Assembly: GCA_963169355.1 (NCBI GenBank)
Contig: CAUJCR010000003.1
Location: 1-64,000 of the forward strand
Length of the DNA: 64,000 nucleotides
Origin: Bacteroidota bacterium
GTDB lineage: Bacteria; Bacteroidota; Bacteroidia; B-17B0; Aurantibacillaceae
Reading direction: 5' to 3'
Of this stretch, positions 1 through 22,267 are shown piece after piece. The first letter of the stretch is position 1. The number at the start of each line of letters is the position of its first letter. A program made the position numbers and the translations under genes. The notes under the pieces are model-generated. The model did no database searches. It was not told where the DNA came from and saw nothing but the letters and a program-made list of their open reading frames with translations.

Positions 1-172
1 AACCCAGATTATGCATTAGCAATTTTATTACGAACTAAAATCCCTGCAAAATATGAAGCTTCGCAACTTTTTCTCTTTCACCGTAGCAGTGGCTACGCTT
101 CATTCGTAAAAGTTCATATTTTATTGGGCTTTTAACTCTCACTACTAATTTCTAATGCACAATCTGGGTTTA
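1..172 (-). repeat. Short TIR repeat element (family B), about 172 bp
   Basis: AACCCAGATTATGCATTAG at the left end is matched by CTAATGCACAATCTGGGTT at the right end (one mismatch). Its reverse complement aligns along its length with 15738-15907 and 16681-16850. Confidence 0.8.
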
Positions 173-186
173 ATAAAAAAATGTGA

Positions 187-2926: not shown

Positions 2927-3100
2927 TGAACCTCGTTTTTTATGCGAAAACAAAATTCAAACTGATTTGGCAGGTAATCTGACTTTGGTTTATTATACCA
3001 TTCACAGTTGCGCAACAGTTCAGGAATTTCACCTGATTCCCCCTATTCTCTGTTTATTCAGTACATATCTAAACAGCCAACTCAGTAATCATTCGGTGGT
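2927..3100 (-). promoter_or_regulatory. Cobalamin (B12) riboswitch upstream of nrdBA
   Basis: Minus strand reads GGGGGAATCAGGTGAAATTCCTGAACTGTTGCGCAACTGTGAAT...AGTCAGATTACCTGCC...ACGAGG, matching the B12-box core (GCAACTGTGA, CAGATTACCTGCC). Confidence 0.9.
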
Positions 3101-11312: not shown

Positions 11313-11988
11313 ATACACATTAGAGATTGCATGTTTTAACTTAGAATCTTGTGTTATTGCACAAGAAGCAGGAGCTGATAGAATTGAGTTTTGTCAGCAA
11401 TATGCTTTAGGTGGCTTAACACCTGCTTACGATGATATTATAAAAGCTAGAGCTCTTATTAAAATTCCGTTACATGTTATTATTCGTCCTCATGCTAATG
11501 GTTTTGTATATTCTTCAAAAGAAATACAACAAATGCAACAGGATATTTTATTTTGTAAACAACAGAAAATTGATGGAGTGGTGTTTGGGGTTTTAAATGC
11601 ACGCCATCATATTGACATAGAAAAAAATCAAGCCTTATTATCGGTGTGTGATAAAATGCTTACTACCTTTCATCGAGCTATTGATAGTTGCCATCTAATA
11701 CCTCAGGCTGTTGAAAGCCTTATTTCATTAGGGTTTCACAAGGTGCTGACATCGGGCGGAAAACACACAGCATTAGAAGGTAAAAACCAAATAAAAACAT
11801 TACAACAACAATTCGGACACCAAATTCAAATTATGCCAGGCGGCTCTATTAGAAGTAACCACATCCAGGCACTACAACAGATTACTCATTGTTACGAGTT
11901 TCATTCGGCGGCTTTAGTAGATGACACCACTCTTACTAATCAACAAGAAGTAAAACAACTAAAACAACAATTGTTAAGTCATGTTTAA
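11290..11988 (+). CDS. cutC: CutC family TIM-barrel protein
   Basis: LEIACFNLESCVIAQEAGADRIEFCQQYALGGLTPAY, VIIRPHANGFVYS, TSGGKHTALEG. Confidence 0.9.
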   Translation: MMPNTSYKYTLEIACFNLESCVIAQEAGADRIEFCQQYALGGLTPAYDDIIKARALIKIPLHVIIRPHANGFVYSSKEIQQMQQDILFCKQQKIDGVVFGVLNARHHIDIEKNQALLSVCDKMLTTFHRAIDSCHLIPQAVESLISLGFHKVLTSGGKHTALEGKNQIKTLQQQFGHQIQIMPGGSIRSNHIQALQQITHCYEFHSAALVDDTTLTNQQEVKQLKQQLLSHV

Positions 11989-14485
11989 ATGTTACTTCAT
12001 AGCTTGTTATTTGTTAAGCCATATTTTAGTAGCGCAGGTTTCACGTGTGCCTCTTCATACAAACTGGAAATTTAAACAAGTAGGCACATCGGTGTATTAT
12101 CCTGCAAGCGTTCCAGGAACTGTTCATACAGATTTATTAAATAATCAAATCATTCCAAATCCAATTTATAACCTTAATGAATTTAAAGTACAATGGGTAG
12201 AAACAAAAGACTGGGAATACGTCTGTCGTTTTTCATTAAACGCACAACAACAATCCACCCAACACATTCAATTAGTTTTTGAAGGATTAGATACGTATGC
12301 TCAAGTGTATCTTAATGACACTTTAATATTAAGTAATCATAATATGTTTCATACCCATCATATTAATATTAAACCTTATTTAAAAAATGACTCGAATGAA
12401 CTAAAAATTATTTTTGAATCATCGGTTAATAAAGGTAAAGAAGCAGCTAAAAGTTTACCTTATACATTACCCGAAAAAGAACGTGTTTTTACGCGTAAGG
12501 CGCAGTATCAATATGGCTGGGATTGGGGACCAAGATTAGTTACCTGCGGTATTTATAAAAACGTGTTGCTCGAATTTTGGGATGATGCTAAAATTAATTA
12601 TACACATTATAAAGTTAAATCACTTTCGGATAGCTTAGCTGAAATAGCTGTTATTACTGAGATAGAAAGCCATCAAAATAAACATGCCAACATCGAGGTG
12701 ATGATAAACGACGCTTCTATACCCGAAAAATATAAACAAAGCATCAAACAACAACACAATGTTAAACTACAGAAAGGTATTACGCTTGATACCTTTTTAA
12801 TTAAAATACCAAAACCAAAATTATGGAACTGTAACGGGCAAGGTTCTCCAAATTATTACGAAGCTTATGTGGGGCTATCAAATCAACAACAAATAAGCGA
12901 TTATAAATTGTTTCATGTAGCTCTTAGAACCATTGAGTTTATACAAGAGCCCGATTTTTTTGGACAAAGTTTTTATTTTAAAATAAACGGACAAAAAATA
13001 TTTATGAAAGGTGCGAATATTATTCCACCTGATAATTTTATGTCGAAAAAAATAGATTATCATGCTTTGGTAAAACAAGCTAAAGATGCAAACATCAACA
13101 TGCTAAGAGTGTGGGGAGGTGGTCTTTATTTAGATGATGAGTTTTATACCGCTTGCGATCTGAATGGCATTTTAGTGTGGCAAGATTTTATGTTTGCTTG
13201 TGCTATGTATCCTGGCGATAGTTTGTTTTTAAAAAGTGTAGGCATAGAAGCAGAGCAACAAATAAAACGTTTGCGCAATCATCCGTGTTTGGCTTTGTGG
13301 TGTGGTAACAACGAAAACGACGAAGCTTGGCACAACTGGGGTTGGCAAAAACAATTTAACTACTCTAAACAAGACTCGGCTAAGATATGGTGTGATTATC
13401 AAAAAGTATTTTATGATATATTACCTACTGCTGTAAAAAACCACGACGGTGTTACTTCTTATATTAGCTCATCACCCATGATAGGTTGGGGAAGAAAAGA
13501 AAGTTTATTAATAGGAGATTCGCATTACTGGGGTGTGTGGTGGGGCATGGAGCCATTTGAAGTGTATAACAAAAAAGTAGGACGTTTTATGAGTGAATAT
13601 GGTTTTCAAAGTATGCCTAGTTATTTTACATTAAAAAAATATGGCGACAGTTTAAATTTAAACTCGGCCTATATTAAAGCTCATCAAAAACACCCAACAG
13701 GATTTCAAACCATAAATGCGTATTTAAAAACAGATTATAAAATTCCGAATAGCTTTTTTAATTATGTATATGTGTCGCAATTATTACAACGCGATGGCAT
13801 GAGCACCGCCATTGAAGCACATCGAAGAGCCAAACCATACTGTATGGGCACACTTTATTGGCAGTTTAACGATTGTTGGCCTGTTACTTCGTGGAGTGCG
13901 ATAGATTATGATAATGTACCAAAGGCATTGTATTTTGCTACCAAAAAACTATACCAAAATGTGATGATTAGCATGACACACCAACGCAATAATTTTGTTG
14001 TTTACTTAATAAACGACAGCACGCACACTATAAATGCCGAATTAAAAACACAACTTAAAAACACCAAAGGAGAAGTTTTATATACTACATCTAAGCAACT
14101 AACTATTGCAAGCAACAGCAGTTTACCAGTTGATAGCCTCTCAGAATCTCTTATAAAACCGTATTCATTAAATGATACATATTGGCATTGTGAATTAATT
14201 CATCACAACAAACCTATTGCATACAAAAATTTTTATTTTGTAAAACCAAAAGATTTAAAGCTACATAAACCAACTATTAAAATTACTAAAACCAAGCATT
14301 CATTAATTCTTAAATCAGATGTATTGGTAAAAGACCTGTATTTATATGGCTTAGATGGTGATTTAAAATTAAGCGACAATTATTTTGATTTAGAAGCTGG
14401 CAAACAGAAAGAAATTTATTTTCAAGAACCTATAAAGAATACAAGTGCCATAAAGTATCTCTCATTATTTGATACAATGAATTAG
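11981..14485 (+). CDS. Beta-mannosidase, GH2, secreted
   Basis: VPGTVHTDLL, MLRVWGGGLYLDDEFY, LWCGNNENDEAWHNWGW, MGTLYWQFNDCWPVTSWSAIDY. Confidence 0.93.
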   Translation: MFKCYFIACYLLSHILVAQVSRVPLHTNWKFKQVGTSVYYPASVPGTVHTDLLNNQIIPNPIYNLNEFKVQWVETKDWEYVCRFSLNAQQQSTQHIQLVFEGLDTYAQVYLNDTLILSNHNMFHTHHINIKPYLKNDSNELKIIFESSVNKGKEAAKSLPYTLPEKERVFTRKAQYQYGWDWGPRLVTCGIYKNVLLEFWDDAKINYTHYKVKSLSDSLAEIAVITEIESHQNKHANIEVMINDASIPEKYKQSIKQQHNVKLQKGITLDTFLIKIPKPKLWNCNGQGSPNYYEAYVGLSNQQQISDYKLFHVALRTIEFIQEPDFFGQSFYFKINGQKIFMKGANIIPPDNFMSKKIDYHALVKQAKDANINMLRVWGGGLYLDDEFYTACDLNGILVWQDFMFACAMYPGDSLFLKSVGIEAEQQIKRLRNHPCLALWCGNNENDEAWHNWGWQKQFNYSKQDSAKIWCDYQKVFYDILPTAVKNHDGVTSYISSSPMIGWGRKESLLIGDSHYWGVWWGMEPFEVYNKKVGRFMSEYGFQSMPSYFTLKKYGDSLNLNSAYIKAHQKHPTGFQTINAYLKTDYKIPNSFFNYVYVSQLLQRDGMSTAIEAHRRAKPYCMGTLYWQFNDCWPVTSWSAIDYDNVPKALYFATKKLYQNVMISMTHQRNNFVVYLINDSTHTINAELKTQLKNTKGEVLYTTSKQLTIASNSSLPVDSLSESLIKPYSLNDTYWHCELIHHNKPIAYKNFYFVKPKDLKLHKPTIKITKTKHSLILKSDVLVKDLYLYGLDGDLKLSDNYFDLEAGKQKEIYFQEPIKNTSAIKYLSLFDTMN

Positions 14486-14541: not shown

Positions 14542-14841
14542 TTAAGAATGATTTTTAAACACCTTTTTTGGATTTCTTTTGGCATGAGTTAATCTAAACA
14601 CATAAATTTTATAACCAATAACTTCAAAAACGATGAGGTAAGGAAACCTGTTTAATTTAATTGTTCTTAATCTTTTATTCTTTTTTTGATACAATAAAGG
14701 AGATACTTTGATGTGTTCCATCGCGGTTTCCCAACTTAAAACAAAATTTAACCCTAAATTTCTTTGTTTAGATTCGTAGTAGCTAACAGCTTCCTTGAGT
14801 TCTAGGTAAACACTTTCAGGAACTAAGATTTCATAAATCAT
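14542..14841 (-). CDS. ParE/RelE-superfamily toxin (TA1)
   Basis: PESVYLELKEAVSYYESKQRNLG...LNRFPYLIVFEVIGYKIYVFRLTHAKRNP; overlaps upstream antitoxin by 4 nt. Confidence 0.85.
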   Translation of the reverse strand: MIYEILVPESVYLELKEAVSYYESKQRNLGLNFVLSWETAMEHIKVSPLLYQKKNKRLRTIKLNRFPYLIVFEVIGYKIYVFRLTHAKRNPKKVFKNHS

Positions 14842-15077
14842 TTACCTAAACTCTTTAATAATTTCTTTTTAACTTGTGATACGGTATAAGTTTTTTCTTC
14901 CCCTTTTAATATAGTTTTTCTACGTGCTTCTATAATTTTCAAATCCTCTGCACTTAATTCATAATCATAATTAGAAACCTGACCGTTCAATAATGTATAT
15001 ACAGCTTCTAAAATTTTTTCATCGTCAATTTGCTCAACACAATCCACAATTTTCTTTTTTAAGCTCGATTTTGTCAT
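14838..15077 (-). CDS. Antitoxin of TA1
   Basis: 79 aa charged protein directly upstream of and overlapping a ParE-type toxin. Confidence 0.8.
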   Translation of the reverse strand: MTKSSLKKKIVDCVEQIDDEKILEAVYTLLNGQVSNYDYELSAEDLKIIEARRKTILKGEEKTYTVSQVKKKLLKSLGK

Positions 15078-15103
15078 TTCTAACCTTGATTATACGTGAA
15101 ACA

Positions 15104-15134
15104 CAAATTTACTTATTTTATGACTACTTTCAAA
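15104..15134 (-). promoter_or_regulatory. Bacteroidetes-type promoter of TA1 (TTTG-N19-TAAATTTG)
   Basis: Minus strand TTTGAAAGTAGTCATAAAATAAGTAAATTTG fits TTTG-N19-TAnnTTTG. Confidence 0.7.
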
Positions 15135-15202
15135 ATAAGAAGTTTATTACTCTTTCTAAATTCCTTTGCTTCTCCAAAGAAAAGCTACAAAAGAAATTTC
15201 AC

Positions 15203-15226
15203 GATACTTTTGGCGCCAAAAGTATC
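15203..15226. repeat. 24-bp perfect palindrome, copy A1
   Basis: GATACTTTTGGCGCCAAAAGTATC. Confidence 0.95.
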
Positions 15227-15302
15227 CAAAACCGTTTTATTTTTCGGAAGGATATTTTTGTTTTCTGCACACATTCCTCCACCAAACAAAACCGCTGATA
15301 TA

Positions 15303-15480
15303 AACCCGAAGTAGTTTATAGGATTTCTATTACAAGTCAAAATAAACTTCAGTCATCGTGCGTGCTCGATTCTGCGGGCTTCAAAATATTGCAAATATTT
15401 CTCCAGTCCTTAAATCTGCGCTGCACAATGCCTTTGTTTATTTTACCTTTCACTACGAAACCTACAAGCTACTTCGGGTT
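15303..15480. mobile_element. MITE-like TIR element (about 178 bp) inserted in repeat copy A1
   Basis: Perfect 12-bp TIR AACCCGAAGTAG...CTACTTCGGGTT, extending imperfectly to about 24 bp; absent from the equivalent position of copies A2 and A3 (gctgattcaaaaatcccac). Confidence 0.75.
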
Positions 15481-15665
15481 AAAATCCCACGAAGCGCTCG
15501 TGCCTGCCCTTCGATTTTCTCACAGCTATATCTGCGAAAAATAAAAGTTCACGCACTCAAAAGCCTGTGTGTTGGGTTACGCACTATGCTATTCCAGTTA
15601 GCGCCATGGCATTTTAAAATGTTGCGTAAAAATCGAGTGGTATCAAAGGCGAGGGCAAGTGTGTA

Positions 15666-15702
15666 GATTCTTTGGGCTGTTCGTGAAGCGCTTCGAACAA
15701 TC
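15666..15702. repeat. Hairpin C1 (hybrid arms)
   Basis: GATTCTTTG ... CGAACAATC: left arm of one hairpin variant, right arm of the other. Confidence 0.7.
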
Positions 15703-15737
15703 GGATTGATGATATGCAGATTTTAGTGAAATTTTAT

Positions 15738-15907
15738 AAACCCAAATTATGTATTAGAAATCGTTATGAGCATCGAAAGTTCAATAAAATAGACACTTTT
15801 ACGATTGAAGCATAGTACGCACTATGTTGAAAGAGAAAAAGTGGCGAAGCGTTCTGTTTTGAAGAAATTTAGAGGCGGAATAGATTATCTAGTACATATT
15901 TTGGGTT
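15738..15907 (+). repeat. TIR repeat element family B, copy B1
   Basis: AACCCAAATTATGTATTAG...CTAGTACATATTTTGGGTT; internal hairpin CATAGT-ACGC-ACTATG. Confidence 0.85.
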
Positions 15908-15987
15908 ATTCGCCTTGATTTTTTTGTAACTTTTTGTTTCAAGGCAAAAAGTTTTTTTTACTTCAAGGTAAAAATAAGTAAGAAAGA

Positions 15988-16248
15988 TTACTTGTAAATT
16001 TCTTTTCGATGTCCTATTTCTCTAATATCTACTAATAGGATAACATCTTCTATTGAATAAATTATTCGATATGTACCCATTCGGATACGCCATAAATTAG
16101 TAAACCCTTTTAATTTTTTACAACCCACAGGACGAGGATTTTTTTCTAAGTCTTTAAGTATTGGGATAATCTTTCGGACGATTTGAGCAGGTAATTTAGT
16201 AAGATTTTTTTCTGCTGTTTTGGATAATACTACTTGATAAAGGCTCAT
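15988..16248 (-). CDS. RelE/ParE-type mRNA interferase toxin (TA2)
   Basis: YQVVLSKTAEKNLTKLPAQIVRKIIPILKDLEKNPRP...LWRIRMGTYRIIYSIEDVILLVDIREIGHRKEIYK; overlaps the antitoxin by 4 nt. Confidence 0.92.
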   Translation of the reverse strand: MSLYQVVLSKTAEKNLTKLPAQIVRKIIPILKDLEKNPRPVGCKKLKGFTNLWRIRMGTYRIIYSIEDVILLVDIREIGHRKEIYK

Positions 16249-16442
16249 TTTAATTTACCCAATTTCTTCAGGTTACTAATTACTTTAGTTAGTGGCACTT
16301 TCTCTTCGTCTTTTCTTGCCTCTGCAAGAATTCCATCTAAAATATCTTCTATAGCTTCCTGATGCTTTTCTATAGCTTTTAAATCTATCTGAATAGCAAT
16401 TTTCTCATTTTTATCATTGGTTACAAAACTAACGCCTTTCAT
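16245..16442 (-). CDS. Antitoxin of TA2
   Basis: Overlaps the RelE-type toxin; the ORF-track start at 16478 falls inside the predicted promoter, so the start is more likely at 16442 or 16451. Confidence 0.75.
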   Translation of the reverse strand: MKGVSFVTNDKNEKIAIQIDLKAIEKHQEAIEDILDGILAEARKDEEKVPLTKVISNLKKLGKLK

Positions 16443-16465
16443 ATCACACATGTTTAAGTGGAATA

Positions 16466-16496
16466 CAAATTTACTCATTTTATAACTACTTTCAAA
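16466..16496 (-). promoter_or_regulatory. Bacteroidetes-type promoter of TA2 (TTTG-N19-TAAATTTG), homologous to the TA1 promoter
   Basis: Minus strand TTTGAAAGTAGTTATAAAATGAGTAAATTTG; 29 of 31 nt match 15104-15134. Confidence 0.72.
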
Positions 16497-16607
16497 GTAC
16501 GGCTTTTTTATAAATCACTTTCACATCTTGCTATTCCGGTTAGCACCATGGCATTTTAAAATTTCACGTAAAAATCAAATATTATCAAAAGCGTTGGAAT
16601 GTGCGAA

Positions 16608-16644
16608 GATTGTTCGGGCTGTTCGCGAAGCGCTTCGAACAATC
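16608..16644. repeat. Hairpin C2
   Basis: GATTGTTCG ... CGAACAATC perfect 9-bp arms. Confidence 0.85.
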
Positions 16645-16680
16645 GGATTGATGATATGCAGATTTTAGTGAAATTTTATA

Positions 16681-16850
16681 AACCCAAATTATGTGTTAGA
16701 AATCGTTATGAGTATCGAAAGTTCAATAAAACAGACACTTTCACGATTGAAGCATAGTACGCACTATGTTGAAAGAGTAAAAGTGGCGAAGCGTTCTGTT
16801 TTGAAGAAATTTAGAGGCGGAATAGATTATCTAGTACATATTTTGGGTTA
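16681..16850 (+). repeat. TIR repeat element family B, copy B2
   Basis: Near identical to B1; AACCCAAATTATGTGTTAG...CTAGTACATATTTTGGGTT. Confidence 0.85.
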
Positions 16851-17013
16851 TGCGCCTTGATTTTTTTGTAACTTTTTGTATCAAGACAAAAAGTTTTATA
16901 AAAAACTTGAATTTTTGTTTCTTTTACTTCAAGGCAAAAGAAAGTAAGAACTTTTTTACTCTTCCTAACTTTTCTTTGCTTCTCCAAAGAAAAGTTACAA
17001 AAGAATCTTTTAC

Positions 17014-17037
17014 GATACTTTTGGCGCCAAAAGTATC
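17014..17037. repeat. 24-bp perfect palindrome, copy A2
   Basis: GATACTTTTGGCGCCAAAAGTATC. Confidence 0.95.
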
Positions 17038-17298
17038 CAAAACCGTTTTATTTTTCGGAAGGATATTTTTGTTTTCTACGCACCTTCCTCCACAAAACAA
17101 AACCGCTGATTCAAAAATCCCACGAAGCGCTCGTGCCCGCCCTTCGATTTTCTCACAGCTATATCTGCGAAAAATAAAAATCCACGCACTCAAAAGCCTG
17201 TGTGTTGGGTTACACGCTATACTATTCAGGTTAATGCTATGGCATTTTAAAATGTTGCGTAAAAATCGAGTGGTATCAAAGGCTAGAGCAAGTGTGTA

Positions 17299-17336
17299 GA
17301 TTCTTTGGGCTGTTCGCGAAGCGCTTTCAAAGAATC
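17299..17336. repeat. Hairpin C3
   Basis: GATTCTTTG ... CAAAGAATC perfect 9-bp arms. Confidence 0.85.
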
Positions 17337-17426
17337 AGCTTGATGCCACAAGGCAAAAGAAAGTAAGAAAGATTACTTATAAATTTCTTTTCTTCTCCTA
17401 AGAAAAGTTACAAAAGACTTTTTTAC

Positions 17427-17450
17427 GATACTTTTGGCGTCAAAAGTATC
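17427..17450. repeat. 24-bp near-palindrome, copy A3
   Basis: GATACTTTTGGCGTCAAAAGTATC, single central change. Confidence 0.9.
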
Positions 17451-17724
17451 CAAAACCGTTTTATTTTTCGGAAGGATATTTTTGTTTTCTACGCACCTTC
17501 CTCCACAAAACAAAACCACTGATTCAAAAATCCCACAAAGCGCTCGTGCCTGCCCTTCGATTTTCTCACAGCTATATCTGCGAAAAATAAAAGTCCACGC
17601 ACTCAAAAGCCTGTGGGTGGGGTTGTTGTATGTTTTTTTACATTAAGCTATTCCGGTTAGCACCATTGCATTTTAAAATGTTGCGTAAAAATCGAGTGGT
17701 ATCAAAAGCGAGGGCAAGTGTGTA

Positions 17725-17762
17725 GATTCTTTGGGCTGTTCGCGAAGCGCTTTCAAAGAATC
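17725..17762. repeat. Hairpin C4
   Basis: GATTCTTTG ... CAAAGAATC. Confidence 0.85.
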
Positions 17763-17853
17763 AGCTTGATGCCACGATGATTTTAGCAAGATTTTAAGAA
17801 GCCTTGATTTTTTTGTAACTTTTTGTATCAAGACAAAAAGTTTTATAAAAAAC

Positions 17854-19143
17854 TTACCTCATCAACGTAACATAACCATTTTTACGATGTTCCTCGCCAT
17901 TAACATCGGTGTAGCGTAATACATAATAATAAACACCACTGCTGGTTTCTTCGCCGCTGTTAGTTCTACCATCCCACCACACCATGTTTTGTGCTAAAGT
18001 ATTTTCTATTTGGTATATCACATTTCCCCAACGGTTAAAAATAGCTATGTCATTTAAGGTGTTACCTTTACCAAGACTAAAGCGCCACACATCGTTAATG
18101 CTATCAGCGTTGGGTGTAAACACATTTGGTATAACTGGCTCTACTACGAGCACTGGCTCGCAGTTGCTACTGTAGGTAACTACAATGCTTTGGGTGGTAA
18201 CAGCGCACTGGGTGGTTTGCAGCACGTAGGTGGTAGTTTGGTTGGGTTTTACTTTTATAAAACTGGTGGTATCAATGGCAAGGCCATTGGCGTACCATTG
18301 GTAGCGGCTATGCACACGAGCAGTATCTCCTAACACTAAACTATCCGAATGTGGACAAATAGTAATAGCTGTGTTTTGTATCTGTGGGCTTGGCAGTTCG
18401 TATAAGGCAACGTCGTCGATGTAGATGTAAAAATTGTTTTTAGCAACACTAGGGACCGTCGAAACAAAGTTAGAGGATATAAATTTTTTATTTAAGTGTA
18501 ATCCATCTCTAAAACTCCCTATGGTTAAATATACTTCATTATCAGTTGAGATAAACTTACCACTTATCTTTACCCAGTTTAAAGTGTCTGTAAAAAACTG
18601 TGTGGTGTCCCATTGTATTTGTGGTTGTATTGTGTTTGTAAAAGAACCTATCGTAGTATAATATGGGTCTTTAGTTAAAAGCATGCCAATTTGATTAGTC
18701 GCAATCTCAGAATTGTTACCTAAGCTTATATAAAACTCACCATAATAACAATTACTCTTTGTTAAAGGAATTCGTAGCTTAACAGCAACGCATTCTGTTT
18801 CAACAAAGGCTGAATCATTTGGATTAGAAACACCATATAAATAACTCCCTAAATATCCATTTCCTGTTCTTGGATTCTGAAATCCTCTAAAATTATAAGG
18901 TACCGTACAGATATAAGGAGGTGATGCAACTGTATTTACACAAATATTAAAATAATCTGGTGTACTAAAATCTGAAAAAACTTGCCACTCTTTAACTTTT
19001 GAACCCAAAGGAGAAATTATCATCTGATTCTGACAATATCCAACCGTATCCTCAAAACTCGGATTAGGAACTAAATTAATCTGCCCTTTTAAAGTAAAAG
19101 CAATAAAAAGTAAAAAGTAATAATATGCAAAGCGGGCTAACAT
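17854..19143 (-). CDS. Secreted protein with T9SS type B (gliding-motility-associated) C-terminal domain
   Basis: Signal peptide; NVFTPNADSINDVWRF...IFNRWGNVIYQ...WDGRTNSGEETSSGVYYYVLRYTD. Confidence 0.9.
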   Translation of the reverse strand: MLARFAYYYFLLFIAFTLKGQINLVPNPSFEDTVGYCQNQMIISPLGSKVKEWQVFSDFSTPDYFNICVNTVASPPYICTVPYNFRGFQNPRTGNGYLGSYLYGVSNPNDSAFVETECVAVKLRIPLTKSNCYYGEFYISLGNNSEIATNQIGMLLTKDPYYTTIGSFTNTIQPQIQWDTTQFFTDTLNWVKISGKFISTDNEVYLTIGSFRDGLHLNKKFISSNFVSTVPSVAKNNFYIYIDDVALYELPSPQIQNTAITICPHSDSLVLGDTARVHSRYQWYANGLAIDTTSFIKVKPNQTTTYVLQTTQCAVTTQSIVVTYSSNCEPVLVVEPVIPNVFTPNADSINDVWRFSLGKGNTLNDIAIFNRWGNVIYQIENTLAQNMVWWDGRTNSGEETSSGVYYYVLRYTDVNGEEHRKNGYVTLMR

Positions 19144-19351: not shown

Positions 19352-22267
19352 ATGATAAAAAAAATAATATACTTTTTCGGTTTTCTTACATGCTCTTATA
19401 GTGTTTTTGCTCAAACACTCGCATCTTATGTTAATCCGTTTATTGGCACTGGTGGCACTGGGCACACTTTTCCGGGTGCGGTTATGCCTTTTGGTATGGT
19501 GCAACTTAGTCCCGATACGCGCATCGATGGCAGCTGGGAAGGTTGTAGTGGTTATCATTACAGCGATTCGGTTATTTATGGGTTTACACACACGCACCTC
19601 AGCGGTACTGGTGTAAGCGATTATGGCGATATTTTAGTAATGCCTACGCTTAACAATAATACTTTTAAAAATAAAGCTTATGCTACATCGTTTAATCATC
19701 GTGATGAGAAAGCAAGCGCAGGATATTATGAAGTTACGTTAAGTAATGGAATACAAGCACAGTTTACAACAACCCAGCGTGTGGGCATTCATCAATACCA
19801 TTTTCCAAAAGATAAAGATACCGCTTCCATCCTACTCGATTTATTACATCGCGATGTGGTTTTAGATAATCATTTGCAAATACTAGATAGCGTTACCATT
19901 TCGGGCTACCGCATTAGCGAGGCTTGGGCAAGAGAGCAGTATGTATATTTTGTTATGAAATTTAATAAGCCCATTTTAGCAAGTAAAATGATAAAAGAAG
20001 GGCTTAGTAATAAGGCTCAAGTGGCTGGAGCGTTTATACAATTTAAAAATAATAACCATAGTCCTTTACTTATTAAGGTTGGTGTTTCGCAAACCAGCGA
20101 AGCAGGCGCCTTATTAAATTTAACCAGCGAAGCACCGCATTGGGATTTTAACACCTATCGCCAACAAGCAGAGGAAGCGTGGAACAAAGAACTCTCTAAA
20201 ATTAAAATCAAAACCAACAATCATCAACAACTTACTACGTTTTACACGGCTTTATACCATTGTTTCACGCATCCCTCATTAGCAGGCGATGTAGATGGCA
20301 AATATCGAGGACGAGATTTAAAAGTTCATCAAGCTAAGGGTTTTACTCCTTATACTGTTTTCTCTTTGTGGGATACTTACCGAGGCTTACATCCTTTGTT
20401 AAGTATTATTGATCAAAAAAGAACTGTTGATTTTATACAATCTTTTATTCAACAAGATAAAGAAAGCGGACGATTGCCCATGTGGGAACTATCAGCCAAC
20501 GAAACCAATTGCATGATTGGTTTTCATAGTGTTTCGGTTATTACCGATGCTATTACTAAAAACATTAAAGGATTTAATATAGAAGAAGCATATAACGCTA
20601 TGCGTGCTGCCTCAAACTACACCAGTTGGAGTATTCCTACATTTAATAAAAACTTAGGATTACAAATTGATGATGAACACGAAAGCGTTTCTAAAACACT
20701 CGAGTACGCTTATGATAATTGGTGCATTGCGCAAATAGCCAAACAACTTAATAAACCCCAAGATTACAAAACACACATTGAACGTGCGCAAGCATATAAA
20801 AATGTGTTTGATAAAGAAACAGGGTTTATGCGCCCTCGAAAAAACGGTAATTGGTTATCGCCATTTGAACCACGAGAAGTAAACAACCACTACACCGAAG
20901 CTAATAGCTGGCAATATACTTTTTATGTACCACAAGATGTTGATGGTCTCACACAACTGATGGGTGGTGCAAAAAAATTGGAAGAAAAACTAGATGCTTT
21001 GTTTAATGCTAGTAACAAAACCGTAGGCAGAGAACAAGTGGACATTACAGGATTAATAGGACAATATGCGCACGGTAACGAGCCAAGCCATCACATGGCT
21101 TATTTATACAACTACATTGGCAAACCCGAAAAAGCACAAGAAAAAATTTATAAAATACTCAACGAGTTTTACCACAACCAACCCGATGGGCTTATAGGTA
21201 ATGAAGATTGCGGACAAATGAGTGCTTGGTATGTATTAAGCGCCTTGGGGTTTTATCCTGTATGTCCGGGTAAACCCGAATACACCATTGGCTCACCATT
21301 ATTTGATGAAGCAACTATTTACTTAGAAAACCAACACACCTTTACTATTAAAAAACGGAATCCAGAAAACAGATTTCAATACATACAAAATTCTTTTGTA
21401 AATGGTAAAGCCAGTAATAGCACTGTTCTTTCACATCAAACCATTATGGCTGGAGGTAATTTAGAATTTGTAATGAGCAACAACCCTCAAAACAATGGAG
21501 CATTTGGAAAATCAAAAGCACTTATGCCACACAGTAGTATAAATGAATCACTCATTGTGCAAACACCCATTATTATTGCACCTAGTAAGATTACAGAAAA
21601 CAATCGCACCATTCAAATTCACTCTGATGAACCCAACGCTAAAATATATTACACTACCGATAATACAGAACCAACAAACAAATCAAAACTTTATACCCAA
21701 GCATTTACCAGCGACACAAGTGTAACCATTAAAGCAATAGCTGTAGTTAATAACAAACAAAGCGCTACTAATATTGCTAAGCTTTATAAAAAACCTAATC
21801 AATGGAAAATAAAATTAGAAAGCGTGTATAACCCACAATACGATGCCGAAGGAGAAGATGGTATTATTGATGGCAAACGCGGCACTACCAATTGGCGAAG
21901 TGGTGGCTGGCAAGGCTATCAGGGGCAAGACTTTGTGTGCGTGATTGATTTAGGAAAAGAAACAGATATACATACTATTGTTTCTAATTACTTGCAAGAT
22001 ACCCGCTCTTGGATTATTTATCCTACACAGGTAGAATATTTTGTTTCTGCTGATGGTAAAAACTTTAAACCCTACGGAGCTACTAAAAACAACCTAACAG
22101 CTAATGACTACGAAGTACACACACAAGAGTTTAAAGTAACAAATACCGAAGCCACAAAAGCACAATACATAAAAGTAAAAGCACATAACTTTGGCAAACT
22201 ACCCGAGTGGCATTTAGGAAAAGGTGGCGAAGCGTTTATTTTTATTGATGAAATAGAGGTAAAGTAA
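19352..22267 (+). CDS. GH92 alpha-1,2-mannosidase, secreted
   Basis: VNPFIGTGGTGHTFPGAVMPFGMVQLSPDT, YGFTHTHLSGTG, SLWDTYRGLHPL, GNEDCGQMSAWYVLSALGFYPVCPG; C-terminal chitobiase-like and F5/8 type C-like modules. Confidence 0.95.
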   Translation: MIKKIIYFFGFLTCSYSVFAQTLASYVNPFIGTGGTGHTFPGAVMPFGMVQLSPDTRIDGSWEGCSGYHYSDSVIYGFTHTHLSGTGVSDYGDILVMPTLNNNTFKNKAYATSFNHRDEKASAGYYEVTLSNGIQAQFTTTQRVGIHQYHFPKDKDTASILLDLLHRDVVLDNHLQILDSVTISGYRISEAWAREQYVYFVMKFNKPILASKMIKEGLSNKAQVAGAFIQFKNNNHSPLLIKVGVSQTSEAGALLNLTSEAPHWDFNTYRQQAEEAWNKELSKIKIKTNNHQQLTTFYTALYHCFTHPSLAGDVDGKYRGRDLKVHQAKGFTPYTVFSLWDTYRGLHPLLSIIDQKRTVDFIQSFIQQDKESGRLPMWELSANETNCMIGFHSVSVITDAITKNIKGFNIEEAYNAMRAASNYTSWSIPTFNKNLGLQIDDEHESVSKTLEYAYDNWCIAQIAKQLNKPQDYKTHIERAQAYKNVFDKETGFMRPRKNGNWLSPFEPREVNNHYTEANSWQYTFYVPQDVDGLTQLMGGAKKLEEKLDALFNASNKTVGREQVDITGLIGQYAHGNEPSHHMAYLYNYIGKPEKAQEKIYKILNEFYHNQPDGLIGNEDCGQMSAWYVLSALGFYPVCPGKPEYTIGSPLFDEATIYLENQHTFTIKKRNPENRFQYIQNSFVNGKASNSTVLSHQTIMAGGNLEFVMSNNPQNNGAFGKSKALMPHSSINESLIVQTPIIIAPSKITENNRTIQIHSDEPNAKIYYTTDNTEPTNKSKLYTQAFTSDTSVTIKAIAVVNNKQSATNIAKLYKKPNQWKIKLESVYNPQYDAEGEDGIIDGKRGTTNWRSGGWQGYQGQDFVCVIDLGKETDIHTIVSNYLQDTRSWIIYPTQVEYFVSADGKNFKPYGATKNNLTANDYEVHTQEFKVTNTEATKAQYIKVKAHNFGKLPEWHLGKGGEAFIFIDEIEVK

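Follow-up and report, generated by a model that had tools for sequence, protein, structure and literature searches.

In a 64,000-nucleotide stretch of a Bacteroidota genome (contig CAUJCR010000003.1, positions 1 to 64,000; hereafter the window), some 2.7 kb of palindromic repeats are interleaved with toxin-antitoxin (TA) genes, and the question is whether repeats and genes form one dedicated system or have met in some other way. A sequence-only reading of the locus had described a composite repeat unit alternating with TA modules and had proposed an undescribed, TA-linked system. Here we ask what the unit consists of, how far it is conserved and dispersed, and how closely the genes are tied to it.

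Results

Composition of the repeat unit

Four copies of the unit, where the sequence-only reading had counted three to four partial ones, lie on the plus strand and are connected by direct repeats of 92-95% identity, far above chance. The complete copy, unit 4 (17349-17853), runs through modules A, B, C (palindrome 17427-17450), Cb, J, L2, Ea, a type 1 E (17648-17797) and G (17801-17853). Unit 3 (16930-17349) comprises A, B, C (palindrome 17014-17037), Cb, J, L1, Ea and a type 1 E truncated at its 3' end (17222-17361), and unit 2 (16519-16906) consists of Ea, a type 2 E (16531-16679), S2 and G. In unit 1 (15154-15985) we found B, C (palindrome 15203-15226), Cb, J, Ea, a chimeric E, S2, G and A, with Cb split by a hairpin insert with 51-nt arms (15297-15486). 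The 24-bp palindrome, expected by chance nowhere, has one asymmetric base in unit 4; the CGGAAGGATATTTTTG block is present in three unit copies and the gctattcc/attttaaaatg block in four. Palindrome core, both blocks, hairpins and a T-rich tail (originally described as poly-T) were all located, and the view of the unit as non-coding, structured and modular is supported.

A covarying hairpin at the core

Module E, a hairpin of about 130 nt, exists in two types, and what separates type 1 from type 2 is compensatory change in three helices. In an alignment of E that includes ten copies from other species, 96.8% of the cells are paired and 11 pairs (72 cells) have changed on both sides, compared with at most 10 cells in slid controls. 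A separate alignment of 25 E copies from other genera gave 31 pairs (131 cells) with compensatory change, where slid controls reached no more than 47 and shuffled ones averaged 37; the structure was predicted here from the same alignment, so its share of paired cells is biased towards that structure, and more weight rests on the compensatory counts. These counts exclude an alignment that had been fitted to the covariance model, because it leans towards the model. G-U cells far exceed A-C cells in both alignments (68 to 5 and 59 to 10), which identifies the plus strand of the window as the folded strand of E. The foot of the hairpin reads TTAAAATTT.

Intact copies of E fold better than their shuffles (z -2.0 to -5.0). 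The E of unit 1 (15589-15737, plus strand; W15589), with a left arm of type 1 and a right arm of type 2, does not fold, and neither do the chimeric copies L035b, L027 and L031 and one from the sister species (z -0.8 to +0.8 for all five), while the mixed copy L030 retains a partial fold (z -2.9). Such chimeras are products of crossover at the hairpin apex. Their persistence indicates that folding is not required for a copy to persist, though the fold is kept over longer times, and they constitute a natural experiment by which it can be tested whether spread needs folding.

A covariance model of E was searched against 87 genomes of the home order, all of one family, and found matches in 39 of them, belonging to four of the ten genera, with 1-25 copies per genome and the most in the home genome. 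Comparative analysis shows the predicted core fold to be conserved across four genera of this one family. The structured core has no relevant match in Rfam 15 at gathering and relaxed thresholds, and the open-access literature searched contains no such repeats in Bacteroidetes. Compensatory change in E across genera exceeds the expectation for most passive MITEs and hence points to a role of the fold. It is this conserved core, which the sequence-only reading did not single out, that makes up the real novelty of the locus.

Downstream of E lies the G element, in unit 4 (17801-17853, plus strand) a hairpin AACTTTTTGT/ACAAAAAGTT with the loop ATCAAG, which can pair with an upstream CTTGAT. More generally, the six-base loop NTCAAG is complementary to an upstream CTTGAN, and of 57 copies 44 allow both pairings, stem and loop with upstream bases; covariation is seen at the variable base (T-A 30, C-G 7, A-T 5), and the hairpin stem is free to vary. 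Module A is designed as G is, with CTTGAA and TTCAAG. A classical H-type pseudoknot was considered for G and rejected, as the two pairings leave no linker; for the same reason a fully paired hexaloop, or pairings that alternate, seem more plausible.

Distribution and mosaic structure

Searched with the complete unit (17350-17853), the home genome (3.2 Mb in 61 contigs) yields 66 matches, which merge to about 30 clusters, many of them close to contig ends. The unit is therefore dispersed, and the 2.7-kb lattice is one cluster of many. Pieces of the unit were also found beyond it, in 22 of the 41 genomes searched, home genome counted in.

Across the window and 29 annotated regions of the home genome, the modules everywhere follow the order A-B-(C-Cb or C')-J-(L1 or L2)-Ea-(E left arm type 1 or 2)-apex-(right arm type 1 or 2)-[S2]-G-A; deletions and insertions are seen, and the order is never permuted. 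Within this order, all four combinations occur of C or C' with L1 or L2, of L1 or L2 with either left arm of E, of left with right arm, and of left arm with the presence or absence of S2. Such free combination of alternatives across positions is the hallmark of recombination at short common seams. B- or C-like modules precede E by 190-340 nt in six of 41 copies from other species; this distance resembles the one in the window and suggests that parts of the composite are old.

Other repeats share this terrain. S2', a 176-bp imperfect palindrome with AACCC...GGGTT ends, lies at window positions 1-173 and recurs at about 28 further sites of the home genome; its stand-alone copies are 91-98% identical to one another, further copies lie inside the units of L029 and L034, and the family looks like a recently expanded MITE. 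At the contig starts of L023 and L027, RHS core fragments and the hairpin families H (CCCGCTCGCGCGGATATGAAGCG...) and X (CCGCTCCGCTGCATTTGTAATGCTGCGGC) adjoin units, and the contigs break there.

Toxin-antitoxin and ORF6N genes

The alternation of unit copies with TA modules was borne out. Both pairs are encoded on the minus strand, the first at 14542-15077 (toxin 14542-14841 and antitoxin 14838-15077, as open reading frames) and the second at 15988-16478 (ParE toxin 15988-16248, antitoxin 16245-16478), where it takes up the position that modules B to J would have in unit 2, its toxin ending inside module A. The toxin of the second pair matches PF05016 with 42.1 bits, above the Pfam cut-off for ParE. 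That of the first has no Pfam match; over 78 aa it shares 38% identity with a ParE-family toxin encoded at another locus of the home genome (L026), and the antitoxin of the first pair is 31% identical to the partner of the L026 toxin. Judged by similarity, both are probably type II TA pairs of the ParE/RelE superfamily, the first solely through its likeness to another ParE toxin. A promoter-like 45-nt repeat, 87% identical between its copies, lies upstream of each pair on the minus strand (15093-15137 and 16455-16499); the TTTG-N19-TAAATTTG contained in the 15093-15137 copy presumably represents a Bacteroidetes promoter.

The home genome has six Pfam ParE genes and four ORF6N genes, and three of each stand no farther than about 220 bp from a unit, where units with 300 bp added take up 1.0% of the genome (footprint 1-2%; 6/10 genes; binomial P about 1e-8 or less, a figure that ignores the intergenic preference of both genes and units). 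The fourth ORF6N gene has just A and H modules near it. The insertion points of these genes differ, falling at A-A, A-Ea and J-H borders, inside E, and after C'. At 54 ORF6N/ParE loci from congeners and the sister species there was no recognisable unit, with isolated fragments at four, though congeners have fewer units to be near. The link between TA or ORF6N genes and the unit is thus a property of the home genome and not a conserved system, and the proposal of a TA-linked system is not supported. No recombinase is encoded in the window, as had been noted from the sequence, but this cannot be extended to the genome, which has 11 tyrosine-recombinase matches, none with a demonstrated link to the unit. 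A cluster that includes TA genes and an RHS fragment has two tandem tyrosine recombinases (L025 10833-11693 and the next gene; C1:180880-182239) about 2.3 kb away.

A variable site between two conserved genes

The lattice is bordered by two conserved plus-strand genes of sugar degradation, on the left by a GH2 (beta-mannosidase-like) gene (11981-14485) and on the right by a GH92 gene (19352-22267). In five congeners the orthologous GH2 gene adjoins GH92 at a distance of about 100 bp or less, that is, the site is empty. In the home genome the gap is 4.9 kb and contains the four, mostly partial, unit copies, the two TA pairs and a T9SS cargo-type gene with a CHU_C domain (17854-19143, minus strand; PF13585, 69.5 bits), whose stop codon directly abuts the G element. 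In the sister species, the GH92 of which is 91% identical, the junction holds a different unit array, without TA genes up to the contig end. The idea that the locus accumulates cassettes is supported by these three states. Other clusters of the home genome are also found at loci syntenic with the sister species and with changed contents; in one such comparison of home with sister genome a 105-bp remnant faces 2 kb that contain one further gene besides a ParE-type pair; in another a degenerate remnant lies opposite a full unit. Content that differs at syntenic unit sites marks these sites as turnover hot spots. The GH2-GH92 site, where a pair of conserved genes encloses whole-gene cassettes, appears to behave like a minimal mobile element. 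The home assembly and most of the relatives are fragmented drafts, partly metagenome-assembled, in which repeats could be misjoined at some junctions.

Related CHU_C genes adjoin units at three places (window 17854-19143, L026 4778-6091 and L038 8040-8408), and at two of the three the stop codon stands directly against a G element. The window also carries a cobalamin riboswitch (2952-3096, minus strand).

Genomic context and probable spread of the core

Copies of E are intergenic, avoid promoters and have no orientation bias. Among 46 of them from other genomes, the 3' end of the neighbouring gene faces the element in 27 of 40 cases upstream and in 30 of 46 downstream. The facing 3' ends, together with the lack of an orientation preference, fit a mobile element with selection against promoter damage. 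A directional 3'-UTR regulator was considered as well and rejected, since E has no orientation bias relative to its neighbours. A 6-kb stretch, L232 3844-9685, holds four E elements, all of one orientation; two begin shortly after a gene's stop codon, at distances of 11 and 17 nt.

One genome (G061; loci L215, L217 and L218) carries several near-identical 375-bp elements that contain the E core, have inverted ends (AGTCG) and are flanked by 4-bp target duplications; of the copies examined these were the only ones with such features, and neither terminal repeats nor target duplications were found for the units of the home genome. From the G061 copies, the promoter avoidance and the differences in copy number we infer that the core is mobile. 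A search for a mobilising enzyme of the unit found none, Y1 transposases showing no correlation with E, and viral contigs, plasmids and phages gave no match, so that carriage by phage or plasmid was rejected.

Discussion

Origin of the locus

With a probability of roughly 0.6, we interpret the lattice as one cluster of a dispersed, non-autonomous, modular mosaic repeat family of BOX/NIME-like type, built on a new structured core and making cassette-trading intergenic hot spots. With a fold conserved across related bacteria, the family looks more like an interspersed bacterial repeat of a new kind than like a toxin system. The core (E hairpin and G) would have spread by transposition, the enzyme being supplied in trans, and homologous recombination or template switching between copies would then have shuffled the modules; it is the mosaics that suggest exchange by homologous recombination. 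Recombination at unit copies could further have let whole-gene cassettes, TA pairs for example, be gained, swapped or lost, as has been described for the intergenic mosaic elements and minimal mobile elements of Neisseria.

The strong compensatory change across genera, the G-U over A-C bias that assigns the fold to one strand, and the start of several E copies within 30 nt of the upstream gene's stop would also suit a functional structured RNA, either a 3'-UTR element or a small RNA, kept in many copies by selection while the other modules hitch-hike. We regard this as rather unlikely, given that E is absent from over half of the order's genomes and ranges from 0 to 25 copies among close relatives, that it has no orientation bias towards its neighbours, and that non-folding chimeric copies persist. 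It is unlikely, too, that E-G represents a mobile element of a new class, dependent for its spread on the conserved folded strand (as RNA or ssDNA) and on a further enzyme, copies in some genomes serving as docking sites for the gain and exchange of TA and other single-gene cassettes. Many units are degenerate and truncated, the TA link is not general, and S2', another palindromic family, is equally dispersed, all of which would be expected of decaying debris, with unrelated palindromic repeats and TA genes heaped in a tolerant intergenic site by no common process. Yet the module order is fixed and reassortment is free at short shared seams, six of ten ParE/ORF6N genes adjoin units covering 1-2% of the genome, and the same sites hold different unit arrays in the sister species; we therefore consider debris quite unlikely. 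Nor is the unit the known inactive repeat, with neither structure nor TA association, that the sequence-only reading had set against its own proposal.

The tight setting of TA and ORF6N genes between modules, the proximity of most of them to a unit and the tandem recombinases near one cluster bring to mind an integron-like or otherwise site-specific cassette system, in which the structured repeats would be recombination sites and the genes cassettes. Against this, insertion points vary among module borders, the link is absent at the 54 loci of relatives, and the recombinase beside one cluster is Xer-like, scoring 32.5 against the integron integrase cut-off of 265, and such a system seems very improbable. 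Hardly credible at all is a REP/RAYT-type origin, in which a Y1 (HUH) transposase would move E as an unusually large REP hairpin: E is indeed an intergenic multicopy hairpin with a preferred folded strand, and atypical secondary structures have been reported for RAYT subclass 2.6 of Bacteroidetes (PMC6006769), but across the 87 genomes Y1 genes occur independently of E (28 of 39 E-bearing and 29 of 48 E-less genomes, P=0.36), no Y1 gene is present in five of the 13 genomes that contain at least five E copies, and there is no E near either of the two Y1 genes of the home genome.

The preferred reading, a repeat family on a structured core, carries two lessons. A structured element of about 200 nt that reaches 25 copies in a genome, shows clear compensatory change across genera and has no counterpart in Rfam 15 or in the open-access papers searched enlarges the small set of modular bacterial repeats. 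And since the GH2-GH92 site indicates that TA genes and repeats can co-locate without a dedicated system, caution is needed before loci that combine the two are called defence or cassette systems.

Comparison with known repeat systems

Integron arrays likewise place structured repeats between cassettes that include TA genes, but here there is no single attachment point, the recombinase adjoining a cluster is not IntI, and the TA link is not conserved. REP/BIME-RAYT systems resemble the family in their many-copy intergenic hairpins and mosaic arrangements; E, however, measures about 130 nt compared with 20-40 nt for REP, its foot differs from the GTAG/GTGG of REP, and it does not correlate with Y1 genes. 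With MITEs the family shares short, non-coding, intergenic, palindromic and multicopy elements and, in the G061 copies, inverted ends with 4-bp duplications, whereas no such ends were found for the home-genome units, and the internal structure is conserved with compensatory change.

The closest parallels are with two modular families. Neisserial intergenic mosaic elements (dRS3 and RS) and minimal mobile elements comprise multi-repeat arrays of 200-2700 bp and differing cassettes between two conserved genes, for which recombination between repeats has been proposed (PMC3898611). The window family similarly forms intergenic arrays of mixed repeat types in one order, in about 30 clusters, and the varying content between GH2 and GH92 (empty, another array, or TA pairs with a CHU_C gene) recalls minimal mobile elements. 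Yet the dRS3 sequence ATTCCC(N8)GGGAAT has no match in the window at up to one mismatch, the core consists of a long hairpin that covaries and is kept across genera, and the phylum is a different one. BOX elements of Streptococcus pneumoniae are modular intergenic repeats with a fixed order, optional modules and predicted folded transcripts, and are seen as non-autonomous parasites (PMC3049150). Judged by this described organisation, the fixed order and optional modules are common to both; alternative modules at one position, hairpin arms swapped between types, a core with compensatory change across genera and TA genes inside the arrays set the present family apart.
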